64,000 bases of DNA from an uncultured Bacteroidales bacterium (GTDB lineage Bacteria > Bacteroidota > Bacteroidia > Bacteroidales > UBA932): the NCBI GenBank assembly GCA_905233655.1, contig CAJOCS010000001.1:1004-65003 (forward strand), given 5' to 3'. A program made the translations under genes and the position numbers. Of this stretch, positions 3,207 through 21,356 are shown piece by piece. Every line of letters starts with the position of its first letter. The first letter of the stretch is position 1. The notes under the pieces were generated by a model. The model saw only the letters and a list, made by a program, of their open reading frames with translations, was not told the DNA's origin and searched no databases.

Positions 3207-3773
3207 ATGAAGACTAAATACTTCTTCGTTTATGTATTTGTGGGAATCGCTTTCCTGGCGGTTTCACTGTGGGTGTGGCTCTCCGGCGGCAGGAACGCCC
3301 GCGCTGTCAACGCCAAGTACCGCCTGGGCGGAGTGATGCTCACTGCATGGTCTTTCCTTTCCATGGTTTCCTGCGACATTCCCGGCCTGCCGCCCTTACC
3401 CGGCGGCGACAACGGGGATGACGGCATGATTATGTGCTACGACCCGGTGATGCCGGAAGAAGACTATACGCTGATAGAAATCCGGCATGCCGACCAGTCC
3501 CGGAATTTTGAAGCCAACGAAATCGTTCCCGGCGACACCATTGTCGTGAGAATCATCAAGCCCGCCAATACGGAATACACCCTTGAAGTCACTTCGATGG
3601 CAAGCGAAGAAAACCCTGAAGAGATGGTGCTGCAGCACACCGATTTCACGGTGGAGCAGGCCGACGACGTCTCCGCCGAGATCCTTCTTTCGGAAGATAT
3701 CACCTATAAGGGACAGGGCGCCATTTGGGTGGAGAGCCAGTGGAGCGGATACAGGTCTGTCATCATCCTCTGA
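3207..3773 (+). CDS. Membrane/lipoprotein-like protein beside a SPASM fragment
   Basis: 188 residues. Residues 5-25 form a hydrophobic helix; a second hydrophobic stretch (about 40-55) ends in LSMVSC, a plausible lipobox, followed by a Pro/Gly-rich linker (PGLPPLPGG). The rest is predicted beta-rich and acidic. The lipobox followed by Pro-rich sequence recalls the small lipoprotein at 21141, which sits by a radical SAM enzyme, and this gene directly abuts a SPASM fragment. I infer it belongs to the rSAM-associated putative lipoprotein group. Promoter placement supports ATG 3207. The order hydrophobic helix then internal lipobox is odd; a start near residue 40 would give a normal lipoprotein, but no Met is placed for it. 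Confidence 0.6.
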   Translation: MKTKYFFVYVFVGIAFLAVSLWVWLSGGRNARAVNAKYRLGGVMLTAWSFLSMVSCDIPGLPPLPGGDNGDDGMIMCYDPVMPEEDYTLIEIRHADQSRNFEANEIVPGDTIVVRIIKPANTEYTLEVTSMASEENPEEMVLQHTDFTVEQADDVSAEILLSEDITYKGQGAIWVESQWSGYRSVIIL

Positions 3774-3819
3774 TGCCGCATTCCTCGCCGTAGAAGATTT
3801 TGCGGGCAAAAACGCCGAC

Positions 3820-4044
3820 ATGCGCTTTTGCAATCACTCTCCAAAGGTTCTGGGTAACATTTTTGAAAGGCCGATAGAGGACATTCTCAACGACGGGAGC
3901 GTCCGGGAGTGGTACTCGGCAGTCCCGGAAAATTGTGCCGACTGCCCGCTTCTTGCCCGTTGCGCCGGCGGCTGCCGCGCGGCCTCTGAACAGGTCTTCG
4001 GCACTTTCGCCCACGAAGACCCCATCCTTTCCGCAAGCCTATAG
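3820..4044 (+). pseudogene. SPASM-domain fragment of a radical SAM maturase
   Basis: Reading in the +1 frame after the upstream stop gives an open frame of about 90 codons that looks exactly like the C-terminal SPASM half of a radical SAM peptide maturase: MRFCNHSPKVLGNI, then CADCPLLARCAGGCRAA, so the auxiliary-cluster cysteines are kept. The radical SAM barrel with its CxxxCxxC motif is absent from this region in every frame. The first Met in frame is at 3820, giving 74 residues. Recognisable homology begins near 3775, right after the stop of the neighbouring lipoprotein gene. Most likely a deletion remnant. The frame has no stops and all cysteines are present, so a functional stand-alone SPASM protein is possible. 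Its stop overlaps the convergent regulator by 6 bp. Confidence 0.6.
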
Positions 4045-5232
4045 AAGACCTTCTTCGCCGGCGCGGAAAATGAGTTCGGCGGTGTTTGCAACGTCGAATT
4101 TCACCAGCAGGCGCTTGCGGTACCACTTGATGGTTTCCGGGCTCAGGCACAAGGCGTCGGCAATCTGGCCTGCGGTGTAACCCTTCGAAAGAAGGTCCAG
4201 AATCTCCTTCTCACGGCCGGTAATCTTCACTCCGGAGGCCGATTTAATCTCGGACGGCGGCTCCGAAGCCACCTGCATCGTAACGCGGCGGCGCCGGACT
4301 AACCATACGGCAAGCACTACTACGAGCAAAAGCAGGACCACGCAGAAGAGTATAACCCAGGTGAGTACCCGTTTCTGGGCGCTAAGCACCTCTTTCATAT
4401 AATTCAGATTCTCCGTACGGAAACCGGGGCTGTAGTCCGGATGGGCGGCGTAGTAGGCATCGGCCCTACGAAGGAAAGGAAGGCTCTTCCAGGGCTTACC
4501 CTGCTCCATATACAGGCGGCCGTAGCCCTTCCAGACGTCCACTATCATCAGCGAATCGGCCGAGGCCACAGCATATTCCATGGCCTTGTCGTAAGCGGCC
4601 TCGGCCTTTCGCATATCGCCTTCATCTATCCAGGTCTCGCCGATATTGTACCACAGCACGGAATTGCTCTCGTTCCAGCCATAGCGCTCGAAAATCTCTC
4701 CAGCCTTTTCATACCACCGCATGGCCTCCGGAATGGAGTCCATCATATTGTAAAGGTTGCCGATGGAACCGTAAAGGGCCGAATAGGCATCGTCTATCTC
4801 GCGCTGCGGATAACCTTCTGGATTGGTAGGAGAGGTGGCGCCTGCGGCCATCGAATCCACGCACACGAGCGAGAGTTTGTAATAGAACATGGCGCTGTCG
4901 TACTGCTCCCGGCCGTAGAAAAGCTGCCCGATGTAGCGGAGAGCGTCGCTGTCGGCATCATTCCATCCCCGGGGATGGCTTATGCCTATGGCCTTGCGCG
5001 CATAGAACATGCTCTTCTCTGTGTTGACGTGGCTGTAACCCCGCATCAGCGACCTGTAGGCATTGTTCAGGTCCACCAGCTGCCGCGTCGAGGCATTGTC
5101 AATCGCATCGGGCGTCCACGCAGCGACAACCCTCTCCAGGGAGTCCAGATTCTGCACCCTCTGGTCGTTGTACGCAAACCCGTGAACAGGCCACAAGGCA
5201 AGCGCCAAAGCTATCACCGCTCTTCTTTTCAC
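4039..5232 (-). CDS. Membrane-anchored TPR / LuxR-type HTH regulator
   Basis: About 397 residues: a signal-like N terminus (VIALALALWPVHGFA), TPR-type helices over roughly 40-280 (for example YGSIGNLYNMMDSIPEAMRWYEKAG), one strong transmembrane helix (WVILFCVVLLLLVVVLAVWLV) followed by RRRR, and a C-terminal LuxR/GerE helix-turn-helix (ITGREKEILDLLSKGYTAGQ). This places the TPR sensor in the periplasm and the DNA-binding domain in the cytoplasm, a known Bacteroidota layout. A longer frame opens with TTG at 5241, but that TTG lies inside the promoter element TATATTTG, so I chose the in-frame GTG at 5232. It is divergent from the peptide/SusCD locus and is a candidate regulator of it (inference). 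Confidence 0.8.
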   Translation of the reverse strand: MKRRAVIALALALWPVHGFAYNDQRVQNLDSLERVVAAWTPDAIDNASTRQLVDLNNAYRSLMRGYSHVNTEKSMFYARKAIGISHPRGWNDADSDALRYIGQLFYGREQYDSAMFYYKLSLVCVDSMAAGATSPTNPEGYPQREIDDAYSALYGSIGNLYNMMDSIPEAMRWYEKAGEIFERYGWNESNSVLWYNIGETWIDEGDMRKAEAAYDKAMEYAVASADSLMIVDVWKGYGRLYMEQGKPWKSLPFLRRADAYYAAHPDYSPGFRTENLNYMKEVLSAQKRVLTWVILFCVVLLLLVVVLAVWLVRRRRVTMQVASEPPSEIKSASGVKITGREKEILDLLSKGYTAGQIADALCLSPETIKWYRKRLLVKFDVANTAELIFRAGEEGLL

Positions 5233-5238
5233 AAGAAA

Positions 5239-5246
5239 CAAATATA
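5239..5246 (-). promoter_or_regulatory. Bacteroidota -7 element (TATATTTG) of the LuxR-TPR gene
   Basis: On the minus strand TATATTTG ends 6 nt before GTG 5232. It fits TAnnTTTG exactly and rules out the upstream TTG as the start, because that codon lies within the promoter. The mRNA is probably leaderless or nearly so. No good -33 TTTG is visible. Confidence 0.5.
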
Positions 5247-5333
5247 CGCAAAAAGTCCCGTTTCACACATTATAGTGGCGTATTTCCCCTATATTCCCCA
5301 CTTTAGGGTGGTGTTTTCCACGCGCGTGTTACC

Positions 5334-5393: not shown

Positions 5394-5525
5394 ATGAAAA
5401 AGTATTACGAAAGCCCCGCTGCAGAAACAGTGGACGTTACGCTGGAATTCAACATCCTTTCCGGCGAGAATCAGTTGTCAAGTCCCAACAATTACTCCGA
5501 CGGAGGAGAAGGATTCGACTGGTAG
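5394..5525 (+). CDS. Short peptide, MKK-x-Y-x-x-P family (43 aa)
   Basis: A 43-residue ORF beginning MKKYYESPAAETVDVTLEF and ending SDGGEGFDW. The peptide at 13664 shares the pattern MKKxYxxPxAxxVxxxLExxxLS and an acidic, Gly-containing end with Trp (YDGDWE). The N terminus lacks a long hydrophobic core, so it is not a classical signal peptide. It lies 29 bp before a fimbrillin-like lipoprotein gene and divergent from the LuxR-TPR gene. Conserved N terminus plus variable Gly/acidic/aromatic tail resembles a leader/core layout, but no modification enzyme adjoins it other than the SPASM fragment 1.4 kb away. Coding status is supported by the second family member and by the operon position. Confidence 0.65.
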   Translation: MKKYYESPAAETVDVTLEFNILSGENQLSSPNNYSDGGEGFDW

Positions 5526-5554: not shown

Positions 5555-7006
5555 ATGAAAAAATACATGTTCATCGCAGTTTCGGCCATTATAGCTATCG
5601 CCGCCTGCACCAAAGAAGCTTACACTCCTGCAGAAGAACCCACAGGAATTCCCTTCACCGCTACCATCCAGAACGACGCCGACGTCCGCGCCATCACCGA
5701 CAATGGAACAAGCCTCAACGTAAACTGGGCCGAGAACGAAACCCTTGCCCTCATCTACACCGCCGGCGGCTCCGCCCGCAATACCACCGCAACCATCACC
5801 GATGTGGACGGAACTGGTAAGGCAACCATCAGTGCAACACTTGACGCAGCCGTCACCGACGGAACAAGCGTGACCATTATCTATCCCGCATCCGCAGCCG
5901 ACGGCACCACCGGCAACGTCCTTGCAAGCGTAATCGCCACTCAGGACGGCACGCTCAGCGCTTCCCGCGACGTTCACAAGGGCAGCGGAACCATCAAGGT
6001 AGAGTCTGCCACGGCTTCACTTTCAAATGGCGCCACACTCACAGCACAGTATGCAATCTGCAAATTCGAGATTGAAGATGCCGACGGCTCCAACAGCCTT
6101 TACGTCAGCAGTTTCGTAGTGAAGGACAACTCCGACAATATCATCACCACCGTTACCCCCGGTTCCTCCACAAGCACTCTCTATGTGGTGCTTCCCGCCA
6201 CCTCCGGTCTGCTCTGGTTCGAGGCTGTCTCTTCCGGCGCTCCTTACGTAGCCAAGGGCACTGCAAGCCTTTCCGCCGGCTCGGTCTACCGCCCCACAGT
6301 GAAGATGGCAACCATCTTCAACATCATCGGCGCCAACGGCAAATTCTATAAAGACAAGGCCGATGCAGTCGCTGCAGGCACCACCGCCGCCGCCATTATC
6401 GCCTACCTGGGCGATGACACCGCGGAAAGCGGATATCAGCACGGACTTGCAATTTCGATGAGAAACTGCGGAACCAGTTCATACAGATGGAGAAGCACCG
6501 AACTCTCCGGCATCGACAACGGAACCGGGCATCAGTTCACCACTTATTCAGACGTACTGGCGGCAAAAGAATCAGGTCTGGAATTGTCTGCCGGTAAGGA
6601 CGATGCGGACAATTACCCTGCTTTCTATGCGGCGATTCATAATGATATCAGCCTTACCGGCGAAACCGGTATGACGGCAAGTCTTCCCTCAAGCGGCACC
6701 AGCACATGGTTTCTGCCTTCGGCTTTCCAATGGAACCAGATTATGTGTGGCCTAATGGGAAACTATTCAGGTCTGACTAATATGCCTAACAGTGTATATA
6801 ATGTCCTTGCCAATTCTACTTCTGATAAGTTTTCTGCCGCAACCGGGTCTACAAATTGCTGGTTCAAGACAGCCACACCCTCTATTCACACCAGTTCTGA
6901 ATATGATGCGGACAATAACTGGAACTTTAGATCCTCTGCAAGCGGTGGAGAATTGTCGACAGCAGGAAAGAATTTCTGTTTTGTCCGCGCTGCGCTGGCA
7001 TTCTAA
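5555..7006 (+). CDS. Fimbrillin-like lipoprotein with C-terminal DUF1566/FISUMP-like domain
   Basis: 483 residues. The N terminus MKKYMFIAVSAIIAIAAC gives a lipobox with Cys at 18. Residues 30-250 have the fimbrillin-family (Mfa-like) pattern: IPFTATIQ, an aspartate/threonine-rich beta region, IIYPASA, then GSVYRPTVKM near 250. The C-terminal part (about 255-483) resembles Fib_succ_major/DUF1566-type domains, with WFLPSAFQWNQIMCGL and CFVRAALAF at the end. Probably anchored in the outer membrane facing out and acting as an adhesin or glycan-binding component. It follows the 43-aa peptide and ends before a large hairpin that separates it from susC. Confidence 0.7.
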   Translation: MKKYMFIAVSAIIAIAACTKEAYTPAEEPTGIPFTATIQNDADVRAITDNGTSLNVNWAENETLALIYTAGGSARNTTATITDVDGTGKATISATLDAAVTDGTSVTIIYPASAADGTTGNVLASVIATQDGTLSASRDVHKGSGTIKVESATASLSNGATLTAQYAICKFEIEDADGSNSLYVSSFVVKDNSDNIITTVTPGSSTSTLYVVLPATSGLLWFEAVSSGAPYVAKGTASLSAGSVYRPTVKMATIFNIIGANGKFYKDKADAVAAGTTAAAIIAYLGDDTAESGYQHGLAISMRNCGTSSYRWRSTELSGIDNGTGHQFTTYSDVLAAKESGLELSAGKDDADNYPAFYAAIHNDISLTGETGMTASLPSSGTSTWFLPSAFQWNQIMCGLMGNYSGLTNMPNSVYNVLANSTSDKFSAATGSTNCWFKTATPSIHTSSEYDADNNWNFRSSASGGELSTAGKNFCFVRAALAF

Positions 7007-7042: not shown

Positions 7043-7107
7043 GGGATGGGGATGATGCGACGTGGGCGTCGGCCTTGAATTCGCCCGCGGAGCATTATCC
7101 CCATCCC
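7043..7107 (+). repeat. Long inverted repeat between lipoprotein gene and susC
   Basis: 16-bp outer stem 7043-7058/7092-7107 (GGGATGGGGATGATGC with GCATTATCCCCATCCC, one G-U pair), continued inside by 7062-7068/7082-7088 (GTGGGCG/CGCCCGC, one G-U pair). Just upstream is a second small stem with a GAAA loop (CAGCGC/GCGTTG, about 7019-7034). There is no U tract after it, so it is not a standard intrinsic terminator. It could end or protect the upstream mRNA. Confidence 0.6.
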
Positions 7108-13663: not shown

Positions 13664-13798
13664 ATGAAAAAAGAGTATCTGACTCCGCAGGCCGATAGCG
13701 TCCTGCTTAAGCTGGAGAGTGTTTTCCTGCTCAGCACGGCAAGCGGAAACACCACTGAAAACATCACCGAACAGGCCTATGACGGCGACTGGGAATAA
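13664..13798 (+). CDS. Short peptide, MKK-x-Y-x-x-P family (44 aa)
   Basis: 44 residues starting MKKEYLTPQADSVLLKLES and ending YDGDWE. Same pattern as the 43-aa peptide at 5394: MKK, aromatic at 5, Pro at 8, alternating hydrophobics, Glu, LS, then a polar variable part and an acidic Trp-containing end. The ATG follows the previous stop by 1 bp and the next lipoprotein gene starts 13 bp after the TAA, so it is translated within the operon. No function is known to me. The two copies, each before a fimbrillin-type lipoprotein, suggest a role tied to those surface proteins. Confidence 0.65.
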   Translation: MKKEYLTPQADSVLLKLESVFLLSTASGNTTENITEQAYDGDWE

Positions 13799-13811: not shown

Positions 13812-15276
13812 ATGAAAAAGATTTTGATTCTGGCTCTGGGCATGGTATTCGCCCTTTTTGCCTGCAACAAGGAAAACTCTACCGTTATTGGTGCAATTGA
13901 AATGACCTTCACGGGAAGTCTCGAACAGCTTCCCGAAACCAAGACATACCTCGAGTGGGATGGCGGAATCCCCGGCTATAAGGTTGGCTGGTGGGCCGGC
14001 AATGAAATCCGTGTATTCGACGGCACCGCTACCGCCCGCAAGTTCACCGCTTCCACAAAGGGTGAATCTTCCGATTTCACCGGCTCCCGCCACATACTAT
14101 GCCCTGTATCCATATCAGGCCGACGCCAAGTGCACCGCCGGCGGAGTATTCACCGCCGAGCTGCCTGCAACCCAGCCCCTCGTGGCCGGAGAACTGGCCG
14201 ACAACCTGAACCTCACCGTAGCGATGACCACCGGCACCAGCTTCGCCTTCAAGAATGTTGGAACCATCCTTGCATTCAGGCTCACTAATGTGGTTACGAA
14301 CTGCAGCTATGTCACCATCGAGGGAAACAACAGCGAAACCCTCGCCGGCACGCTCACGATCGATTACAACGGCGGAGACCCTTCGGTTACCTCCGTCGCA
14401 AGCCCTTCAACCGTGGTCACCCTTACGAATTCCAACCCCACCCTTGACAGCGGCACCTACTTCTGCGTGGTAAATCCCGTAAACATTACCGGCGGTTTCA
14501 CAATCACCTTCTACGACGGTTCCGACAACGAGATTACCCATGTCTCCAGCACCAAGCCCGTGAACATGACACGCGGGAAGCTCCTTAACCTCGGAACCCT
14601 GCCTCTCAAGCCCACCATCAACGGCACCGCCCTCACCTACGATTCGGTGAACAAGCGCTATTATGGAGACTTCACCTTCGACGGATCCGCAATCTCCATG
14701 TCCGGAATCGACATCGCCCACGCAGTCAATCCCGACTTCTTCTCCTACAGCGCCGGCGTTCTCACCTTCCTGCGCAGCACTTCCATTACCTGGACCGTAG
14801 AGTACTTCACCGACTACAACTTCATCTGGGTGTCGAACACCATGCTTGGCTTCCCGGATGTACTCTATGTAGTGGGCAACGGCAAATCGGCTTGTCCTTC
14901 CTATGAACACGCAACCGGCGAACCCGGCGTCATGTGGAATCTGAGCGCACCTTATTTCTGTGTGGCACCGCTCATTGAAACAACGGCCGAAGCCCACACG
15001 CTTCAGGTAACCATGTCCGTCTCCACCGGCAATTCATGGGGAGACGTGCGCGTCTACTTTGGCAAGGGCGGCGGCAACTGGGCCACGCTTTCCTCCAGCG
15101 CCACGGTAATCAGCGGAGACAATGCTTCTTCGTTCGAAATTGCCGACGACGGCGGCGGAACCATGACCCTGCACAGCAAGGCCGGATTTGACAAAGACGG
15201 TTACTACCGCATGGTCCTCACCTACGACCGCACGGAAAACATCATTACCGGAATAGCACTTACAAAACTCGACTAA
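13812..15276 (+). CDS. Fimbrillin-like / SusF-like fusion lipoprotein, frameshift at 14086-14088
   Basis: Lipobox in MKKILILALGMVFALFAC. The N-terminal part is fimbrillin-like (GWWAGNEIRVFDG; after correction TYYALYPYQADAKC; later GTYFCVVNPVNITGG and MTRGKLLNLGTLPL). The C-terminal part (from about 14640) carries the glycan-binding-type module of the upstream gene (PDFFSYSAGVLTFLRS, YNFIWVSNTMLGFPDVLYVV). The first frame runs to 14088 and the rest is in the +1 frame. Removing one C from the CCC run at 14086-14088 gives DFTGSATYYALYPY, the family's usual pattern. Total about 487 residues. Next gene starts right after its stop. Surface-exposed adhesin/binding protein by inference. Confidence 0.75.
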
Positions 15277-20041: not shown

Positions 20042-21091
20042 TTAAAGAATTTTGGAATAATGGCACTGGAGCAGCTGAGGAGGCTGCCCGTGCCAGTTGT
20101 GCATTCCGTTGCCAAGGCAGTTCTTCCATTCCCTGCAGCCCTCGCACTCTCCGGTGCGGGCCCAGCTGCGGTCCCGGAAGGGCTGGAAACGGGTGTCCCA
20201 GACCTCGAAGAAATTGTCCTTGTAGATACTGCCCTGGGAGAATGCATCCCGGTCGATATTCGGGCAGGCGCAGATGCGTCCGTCTATCAGAACGGATGCG
20301 ATGTTCACTCCCGCGCGGCAGAAATACCGTATGTCACGGACTGCTTCTTCATAACGGCCCAGATAGCCCTCGCAGCTGAAAGTGACCTTCATGGGGCCTC
20401 CTTCCTCCCGCTTTTCGCGGATAAATTCCATAAGGGAGGTGAACTGGGCGTTGTCCAGATGCATGTCCGGGTCGGAGGCCGCCCTGCCTATGGGAATGAT
20501 GGTGAAAAGCCTCCACTGCTTCACTCCCTGGCCGCGCAGGACCTCGTAAAGTTCCTGAAGCTCCCCTATATTGCGTTTGTTTACGCAGGTCACAACGTCG
20601 GAATTCAGCCTCGGCTCCGCGGCAATGAGGCCGATGGCTTTCAGCGCCCGGGCGTAGCTGCCGGGCCTTCCGCGCATCCAGTCGTGCGATGCCTCAAGGC
20701 CGTCGAGGCTTACCGTTATGGCGCCCATTCCGGCCCCCACGAGCTTTGCGTGCATGGCTTCGTCGTAGAACCAGCCGTTTGAAACCATTCCCCATCCGAT
20801 TCTCCGGCGGCGGAGTTCCGCGCCGACGGTGGCGATGTCCGGCCTCAGCAAAGGCTCTCCGCCGGTGAGCACCACGCAGAGGTCCTTCGCCCTCTCCTTC
20901 TCCGGAATGGTGTCAATCGCTGCGAGGAAATCCTCGAGGGGCATATCCTTTTCGCGGCAGAGCTGCGAGCAGTCGCTTCCGCAGTGGCGGCAGTGAAGGT
21001 TGCAGCGGGTGGTGCACTCCCAGAAAAGATAACTGAGTTCATGCACTTTTATCTCATTGTCTCGGAAAAGTCTGAAGAAAAACGGATTCAC
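20042..21091 (-). CDS. Radical SAM enzyme of the rSAM/lipoprotein system
   Basis: 349 residues. Starts with MNPFFFRLFRDNEIKVHEL; the radical SAM cluster is C30-x3-C34-x2-C37 in CTTRCNLHCRHCG. LTGGEPLLRPD and ITVSLDGLEASHDWMRG follow. The C terminus has SPASM-like cysteines (FCRAG, RICACPNI, GECEGCREWKNCLGN). The pattern matches TIGR04133 (rSAM/lipoprotein system) as I know it. Start is GTG at 21091, 17 nt after a TATATTTG -7 element. It is divergent from a 71-residue lipoprotein gene, the expected partner; the reaction is unknown. It probably modifies or assists that lipoprotein (inference). Confidence 0.88.
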   Translation of the reverse strand: MNPFFFRLFRDNEIKVHELSYLFWECTTRCNLHCRHCGSDCSQLCREKDMPLEDFLAAIDTIPEKERAKDLCVVLTGGEPLLRPDIATVGAELRRRRIGWGMVSNGWFYDEAMHAKLVGAGMGAITVSLDGLEASHDWMRGRPGSYARALKAIGLIAAEPRLNSDVVTCVNKRNIGELQELYEVLRGQGVKQWRLFTIIPIGRAASDPDMHLDNAQFTSLMEFIREKREEGGPMKVTFSCEGYLGRYEEAVRDIRYFCRAGVNIASVLIDGRICACPNIDRDAFSQGSIYKDNFFEVWDTRFQPFRDRSWARTGECEGCREWKNCLGNGMHNWHGQPPQLLQCHYSKIL

Positions 21092-21104
21092 TACGGTATG
21101 TTTT

Positions 21105-21135
21105 TTTGCAAATATAATGATAATTGCTATTTTTG
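21105..21135 (+). promoter_or_regulatory. Promoter TTTG-N19-TATTTTTG of the small lipoprotein gene
   Basis: -33 TTTG at 21105-21108 and -7 TATTTTTG at 21128-21135 are separated by exactly 19 bp, matching the Bacteroidota consensus. The -7 ends 5 nt before ATG 21141, implying a leaderless mRNA. Confidence 0.7.
21109..21116 (-). promoter_or_regulatory. Bacteroidota -7 element (TATATTTG) for the radical SAM gene
   Basis: Minus-strand TATATTTG, 17 nt before GTG 21091. It overlaps the divergent lipoprotein promoter, so the pair is likely expressed together or in competition. Confidence 0.55.
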
Positions 21136-21140
21136 CAATT

Positions 21141-21356
21141 ATGAAATGGCTTCACAACTTCCTTAAAGGAGCCTCCCTCACAGGGGCGCTCTTTGTGTTC
21201 CAGGCCTGCTACGGCATGCCTCAGCCTCCCGAGTTCGAAGACGCGGAAGAGGCGCCTGTAACTGCCTCGGCAGAGACGAAGGCCGGAGACGAAGGTGAGG
21301 ACATTGTTCCTCTCGGCGAAGCGGAAAATGCCACCGATGTCTCCGAAGTGGAGTAA
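21141..21356 (+). CDS. Small lipoprotein of the rSAM/lipoprotein system
   Basis: 71 residues: MKWLHNFLKGASLTGALFVF then QAC, a lipobox with Cys at 23, directly followed by YGMPQPP, and then a strongly acidic tail (FEDAEEAPV, DEGEDIVPLGEAENATDV). A longer reading from 21057 is possible but the promoter and lipobox fix the start at 21141. It is divergent from the radical SAM gene, and lipoproteins with a Cys-Tyr-Gly-x-Pro start are the usual neighbour of that enzyme family. Likely the substrate or partner; the modified residue is unknown. A terminator follows within 4 bp. Confidence 0.78.
   Translation: MKWLHNFLKGASLTGALFVFQACYGMPQPPEFEDAEEAPVTASAETKAGDEGEDIVPLGEAENATDVSEVE

Follow-up and report, generated by a model that had tools for sequence, protein, structure and literature searches.

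Small precursor peptides with a lasso-type leader motif precede surface lipoprotein genes in gut Bacteroidales

The locus

The DNA analysed here, referred to as the window, is a 64,000-nucleotide stretch from an uncultured, Cryptobacteroides-like member of the Bacteroidales, whose genome is available as a 1.73 Mb draft in 96 contigs (83% complete). It carries two short reading frames, each directly followed by a lipoprotein gene. The features are as follows.

4039..5241, minus strand: TPR/LuxR-type regulator, divergent from peptide 1
5297..5316, plus strand: element CCCACTTTAGGGTGGTGTTT, between the regulator and peptide 1
5394..5525, plus strand: precursor peptide 1, 43 aa, MKKYYESPAAETVDVTLEFNILSGENQLSSPNNYSDGGEGFDW
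5394-5462, plus strand: leader of peptide 1, aa 1-23, MKKYYESPAAETVDVTLEFNILS (predicted boundary)
aa 24-43 of the same frame: core of peptide 1, GENQLSSPNNYSDGGEGFDW (predicted boundary)
5555..7006, plus strand: paired lipoprotein 1, length 483 aa with lipobox AIAAC; N-terminal domain fimbrillin-like according to a profile of its kind
7043..7107, plus strand: hairpin after lipoprotein 1, 26-nt arms, -65.9 kcal/mol, z -7.3
13664..13798, plus strand: precursor peptide 2, 44 aa, MKKEYLTPQADSVLLKLESVFLLSTASGNTTENITEQAYDGDWE, divided as MKKEYLTPQADSVLLKLESVFLL / STASGNTTENITEQAYDGDWE
13812..15276, plus strand: paired lipoprotein 2, frame broken in the assembly

The boundary between leader and core of peptide 1 was placed at the point where conservation across 61 family members is lost. 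The two peptides are 30% identical over a full-length alignment, and neither has a match in scans with Pfam and NCBIfam models. Since the relative of lipoprotein 2 at locus L117 is one intact frame of 495 aa, the broken frame in the window is either a pseudogene or an assembly error.

The hairpin at 7043-7107 probably marks the end of the peptide-lipoprotein transcript, ahead of susC. The first-pass annotation had placed the peptide at the head of an operon containing SusCD. This link is rejected, given the intervening hairpin and the absence of SusCD beside orthologous peptide-lipoprotein pairs.

The divergent TPR/LuxR-type regulator is also found near the orthologous pair in two related genomes (G316 and G370) and is thus a candidate regulator of the pair. 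The core of the upstream element, AGGGTGGTGTTT, recurs at three further loci (L301, L302 and L303), either at orthologous peptide loci or near a TPR/LuxR-type regulator, and is possibly the operator of that regulator. It is not a family-wide signal, with the core present in one of 74 upstream regions. The Bacteroidetes -7 motif TAnnTTTG occurs in the window about as often as chance would predict (16 times against 15.7 expected) and was left unused for that reason.

A radical SAM association was also rejected: the enzyme 6 kb from copy 2 belongs to a separate known system. It is a radical SAM/SPASM protein (20042-21091, minus strand) that matches TIGR04133, rSAM_w_lipo, at 457 bits against a cut-off of 425. 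Opposite it lies a short Cys-containing frame (21057-21356, plus strand) with no NCBIfam match. Elsewhere in the window, behind an unassigned frame at 3207-3773, there is a SPASM C-terminal piece (3583-4044, plus strand; TIGR04085, above cut-off) that lacks the radical SAM core and resembles a maturase remnant.

A large family of small precursor proteins

The frame at 5394-5525 is genuine and is one member of a large family of small precursor proteins that has been overlooked in gut Bacteroidales. Searching the draft genome at the DNA level for the pattern MKKx[YF]xxP gives three matches, all of them family members, while the backwards control gives none. Profiles built from the pattern matches extend this to at least seven loci (window 5394 and 13664, C5:66850, C8:29762, C8:59716, C48:4833 and C2:226), with a weaker match at C29:17058, and find nothing among reversed reading frames. 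The window frame and its second copy are thus more than chance. Across 61 related genomes, most of those of the same genus hold members, with up to 12 copies each. The named sources of the related loci include rumen and gut Bacteroidales bins, one of which is named Candidatus Cryptobacteroides. The limits of this family of short peptides are soft, and the genomes are mostly drafts. In the literature searched, which excluded most subscription papers, no description of the family or of its pairing with lipoproteins was found.

Peptide 1 has orthologues in G316 (reading MKKTTREYLAPEVEVMEVGLETSLLTGSENQIPKPTDYTGSGEGFDW), G374 and G309, and a looser one in G370. All four frames are open, their cores are conserved, the GEGFDW end is kept in three of them, and each precedes an orthologous lipoprotein. 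The pN/pS ratio is 0.23-0.41 for this set and 0.15-0.57 across all pairs, with synonymous sites saturated for distant pairs, including those with the window copy. The peptide frame, core included, is under purifying selection. An orthologue of peptide 2, at L117 in genome G009, likewise keeps both its core (GNITESVTEVQYDGDWS) and its paired lipoprotein. The first-pass annotation had allowed for the frame being confined to its two copies or broken in close relatives; neither holds, because a wider family exists and the orthologues are intact.

The leader followed by a variable tail, which had been suggested from two copies, is borne out by the conservation across the 61 members. When these are aligned on YxxP, Tyr at position 0 and Pro at +3 are invariant (the members having themselves been anchored on this motif) and Lys or Arg precedes the Tyr. 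Glu occupies +6 in 52% and +13 in 59% of members, and Val or Ile is found at +7. Positions +8, +10 and +12 are hydrophobic, Leu, Ile or Phe is found at +16, Leu or Cys at +17, and Ser or Gly at +19/+20. The tail is 25% Asp plus Glu, with a mean net charge of the core of -4.7, and in 53 of the 61 members at least one of the five C-terminal residues is aromatic. All 82 collected cores contain Ser or Thr. In one branch, from genome G147 (L198, L199, L206, L207 and L208), the tail reads SYRNSLWGDDE or is W(S)DYEN-like, and a lipoprotein gene is mostly absent behind the peptide.

The leader motif

No known leader class had seemed to fit these peptides. This view has to be revised, since the leader contains the lasso-type YxxP motif. 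The conserved stretch, [K/R]xxYxxPxxE(V/I)xxLxxE, is the leader pattern bound by lasso-type PqqD-like recognition elements, and binding of the family leader by such an element is predicted from this resemblance. In lasso systems, YxxP is the leader motif bound by RREs (PMC12710340), and protein B1 delivers the leader to B2 (PMC5067487). Ruminal lasso leaders such as MKKDWTIPTLEVLDINMTMA share their register with the family leader (PMC7533575).

Lasso-type precursors also occur within the genus. Genome G013 encodes two at locus L064 (2470-2598 and 6632-6760), with leaders of the form KKQxWxTPEIIDLDV. The locus has a lasso-like row of PqqD, HprK-like, asparagine-synthetase-like and B2 genes.

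The paired lipoproteins

For most family members in the genus, a frame with a lipoprotein signal starts between -38 and +51 bases from the peptide. A lipobox is present in 54 of 66 genes downstream of a peptide, whereas the rate among 834 background genes is 16% (p=1e-28). The lipoproteins share an N-terminal consensus (F.A......TKT......W..GD.I.V ... F ... AxYPA ... P..Q), and a profile that combines 17 such N-termini finds a putative cell adhesion protein, PDB 4k4k, at E=2.5e-5. Fimbrillin-like lipoproteins had been raised as possible neighbours, and by profile the N-terminal domain of the partners does appear fimbrillin-like. Mfa_like_1 matches two of the 17, the lipoprotein from Proteiniphilum weakly matches the Mfa1 family (E=2.7e-4), and a phmmer search with the window lipoprotein retrieves few relatives among the loci collected. 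The AlphaFold model of lipoprotein 1 failed, with a pLDDT of 34. The C-terminal parts of the partners vary, including, for example, a weak FISUMP match and an alginate-lyase-like match.

Peptides with similar cores tend to have similar lipoproteins (Mantel r=0.146, p=0.0005), a small correlation for which shared descent could account in part, and leader similarity shows no such correlation (p=0.66). Examples of co-tracking are L034/L128 (core SxETMRTVxGSWxE), L040/L115 and L035/L041/L043.

Association with a PqqD locus

The PqqD loci of the genus have a conserved row of genes: an HprK-like protein, an S24/S26-like protein, PqqD, sometimes NTP_transf_5, and an ABC exporter that has no C39 domain. 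The motifs SGTGKSTH and NDD.P are conserved among the HprK-like proteins, as are SM.PF and HR among the S24/S26-like proteins. Both kinds of protein match curated families weakly, and the structure model of the HprK-like protein (pLDDT 91) matches known structures of PEPCK and of HPr kinase. In the genome of the window, the S26, PqqD and ABC genes lie together at L061, and the HprK-like gene is apart on contig C22 (E=3e-75). The only PqqD of this type in that genome is frameshifted in the draft (L061, about 7660-7405, minus strand); therefore, either this strain possibly has an inactive machinery, or the assembly has introduced the indel in error.

Peptide and PqqD co-occur across the order. 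The peptide is present in 24 of the 393 Bacteroidales genomes sampled, and this PqqD type in 28 genomes plus one more (G000) with a split match. PqqD was found in 19 of the 24 peptide-positive genomes and in 10 of the 369 negative ones (Fisher p=7e-21), and the 19 genomes with both span 11 family-level groups. An earlier, smaller draw gave PqqD in 6/6 peptide-positive genomes against 4/143 (p=1.5e-8). The mismatches are five genomes with the peptide and without this PqqD type, and ten with the reverse; one of these ten, G647, has a peptide beside PqqD when the locus is read.

Physical linkage is seen as well. In six of the 19 genomes with both, the two genes are no more than about 6 kb apart, where 0.33 are expected (p=1.4e-6). 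In the genus of the window, peptides are mostly not beside the machinery, with seven matches near 80 PqqD loci. A complete one-strand row of peptide, lipoprotein, HprK, S26, PqqD, NTP and ABC genes, in this order, is present at two loci, L281, from the cultured Proteiniphilum acetatigenes DSM 18083, and L351. Rearranged or shorter rows are found at L353, L354, L357, L190, L077 and L062, the last with the peptide as the first gene of the machinery. Radical SAM genes had been raised as possible neighbours, but the linked enzymes are instead PqqD, HprK-like, S24/S26, NTP_transf_5 and ABC proteins; no radical SAM enzyme was found in the cassette rows read.

A proposed maturation pathway

We consider it likely that the peptide is a ribosomal precursor guided by a lasso-type leader, which is bound by PqqD, cut, modified, exported, and acts with its paired lipoprotein. 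The individual steps are proposed from gene anatomy and known relatives. The free-standing PqqD-like recognition element would bind the leader at KKxYxxPxxE(V/I)xxLxxE and present the peptide to the S24/S26 protease, a signal-peptidase-like enzyme of the Ser/His type, which may cut off the leader close to the stretch conserved as [LIF][LC]x[SGA][SGT]. The HPr-kinase-like enzyme would then modify the core, most likely by phosphorylating Ser or Thr, and in many genomes the NTP_transf_5 protein may assist it. The ABC exporter would move the acidic, Trp/Phe-ended core of roughly 20 residues out of the cytoplasm. Once exported, the core is predicted to act with the lipoprotein encoded directly behind it, as a ligand or subunit reserved for that lipoprotein. 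A single central machinery could in this way serve many scattered precursor-lipoprotein pairs. A broader reading, that this is a new Bacteroidales class in which central machinery matures scattered, private phosphopeptide partners of pilin-like lipoproteins, is put forward tentatively, and we regard it as slightly more apt to fail than to hold.

Other explanations can be set against this pathway. One is a lasso precursor that is cleaved by B2, after which an asparagine-synthetase-like enzyme threads its core and closes the ring. The leader motif fits, as do the PqqD, HprK, NTP_transf_5 and ABC genes, which match those of lasso clusters (cf. PMC7533575). However, B2 (PF13471) is absent from the genome of the window and from all but one of 36 other genomes of the genus, the cassette rows read have no asparagine-synthetase-like gene, and, in the lasso register, Thr is found at the leader position in only two of 82 sequences and Gly at the core start in none. 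Membership of the lasso peptides is rejected because B2, the leader Thr and the core Gly, features of lasso cyclisation, are lacking, and we hold this explanation to be very improbable. It is also quite unlikely that the peptide is a cytoplasmic leader peptide, an attenuator or translational coupler, whose part ends with setting lipoprotein expression. Its position, 0-50 bases ahead of the lipoprotein and often with overlapping frames, would suit such a role. Yet it is the amino acids that are under purifying selection, those of the core among them, and across families the peptide is found together with a PqqD locus that lies far from it. In addition, peptides of the G147 branch mostly have no lipoprotein behind them, and the peptide at L062 heads the machinery itself.

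A further explanation keeps recognition by PqqD, cleavage and export but leaves the peptide unmodified; it would contribute a strand to a type V-like lipoprotein pilus or help in its assembly, with the kinase and nucleotidyltransferase acting on another substrate. The fimbrillin-like pairing and the correlation between core and lipoprotein are consistent with this, as is the location of the HprK-like gene of the window's genome away from S26-PqqD-ABC. We think it unlikely, since the HprK-like gene is in the same row at most linked loci and many partners carry other C-terminal domains, such as those with weak FISUMP or alginate-lyase-like matches. The precursor pathway outlined above is preferred.

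This pathway would give a functional frame to many unannotated small reading frames of common gut and rumen Bacteroidales, and would link surface lipoproteins, presumed to be adhesins, with lasso-like processing of peptides. The complete cassette in the cultured P. acetatigenes makes both ideas testable. The peptides are also a candidate substrate for many orphan PqqD-HprK-ABC loci in Bacteroidales. If the reading of central machinery and private phosphopeptides is true, it would represent a modular diversification of surface adhesins or peptide signals.

Comparison with known systems

Like the fimbrillins of type V pili (FimA/Mfa1-like), the partners described here carry a lipobox and, judged by profile, appear fimbrillin-like at the N-terminus; unlike them, they differ strongly in their C-terminal parts. 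Neither processing by PqqD nor a small precursor peptide is known to us from type V pili.

In the HPr-rel-A system, an HprK-related kinase (TIGR04352) likewise adjoins a PqqD-like protein, but the kinase here scores 14.7-19 bits, far under the TIGR04352 cut-off of 200. The GG-leader RiPPs of Bacteroidales, which utilise C39 exporters or radical SAM enzymes (PMC10352776), also have a small precursor and ABC export. They differ from the present family in that here GG is found in the cleavage region of only four of 82 sequences, the exporter is without C39, and the cassette rows read are without a radical SAM enzyme.

There is also a likeness to split B1/B2 lasso systems with HPr-kinase tailoring, of the paeninodin and pseudomycoidin type. 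These also have a YxxP/WxxP leader, a free-standing PqqD-like RRE, an HprK-like kinase, NTP_transf_5 and an ABC exporter without C39. In contrast to them, the cyclase is absent from the rows read here, as are the leader Thr and the core Gly; an S24/S26-like protease is found in place of the B2 transglutaminase-like protease; and the precursors are scattered and paired with surface lipoproteins.
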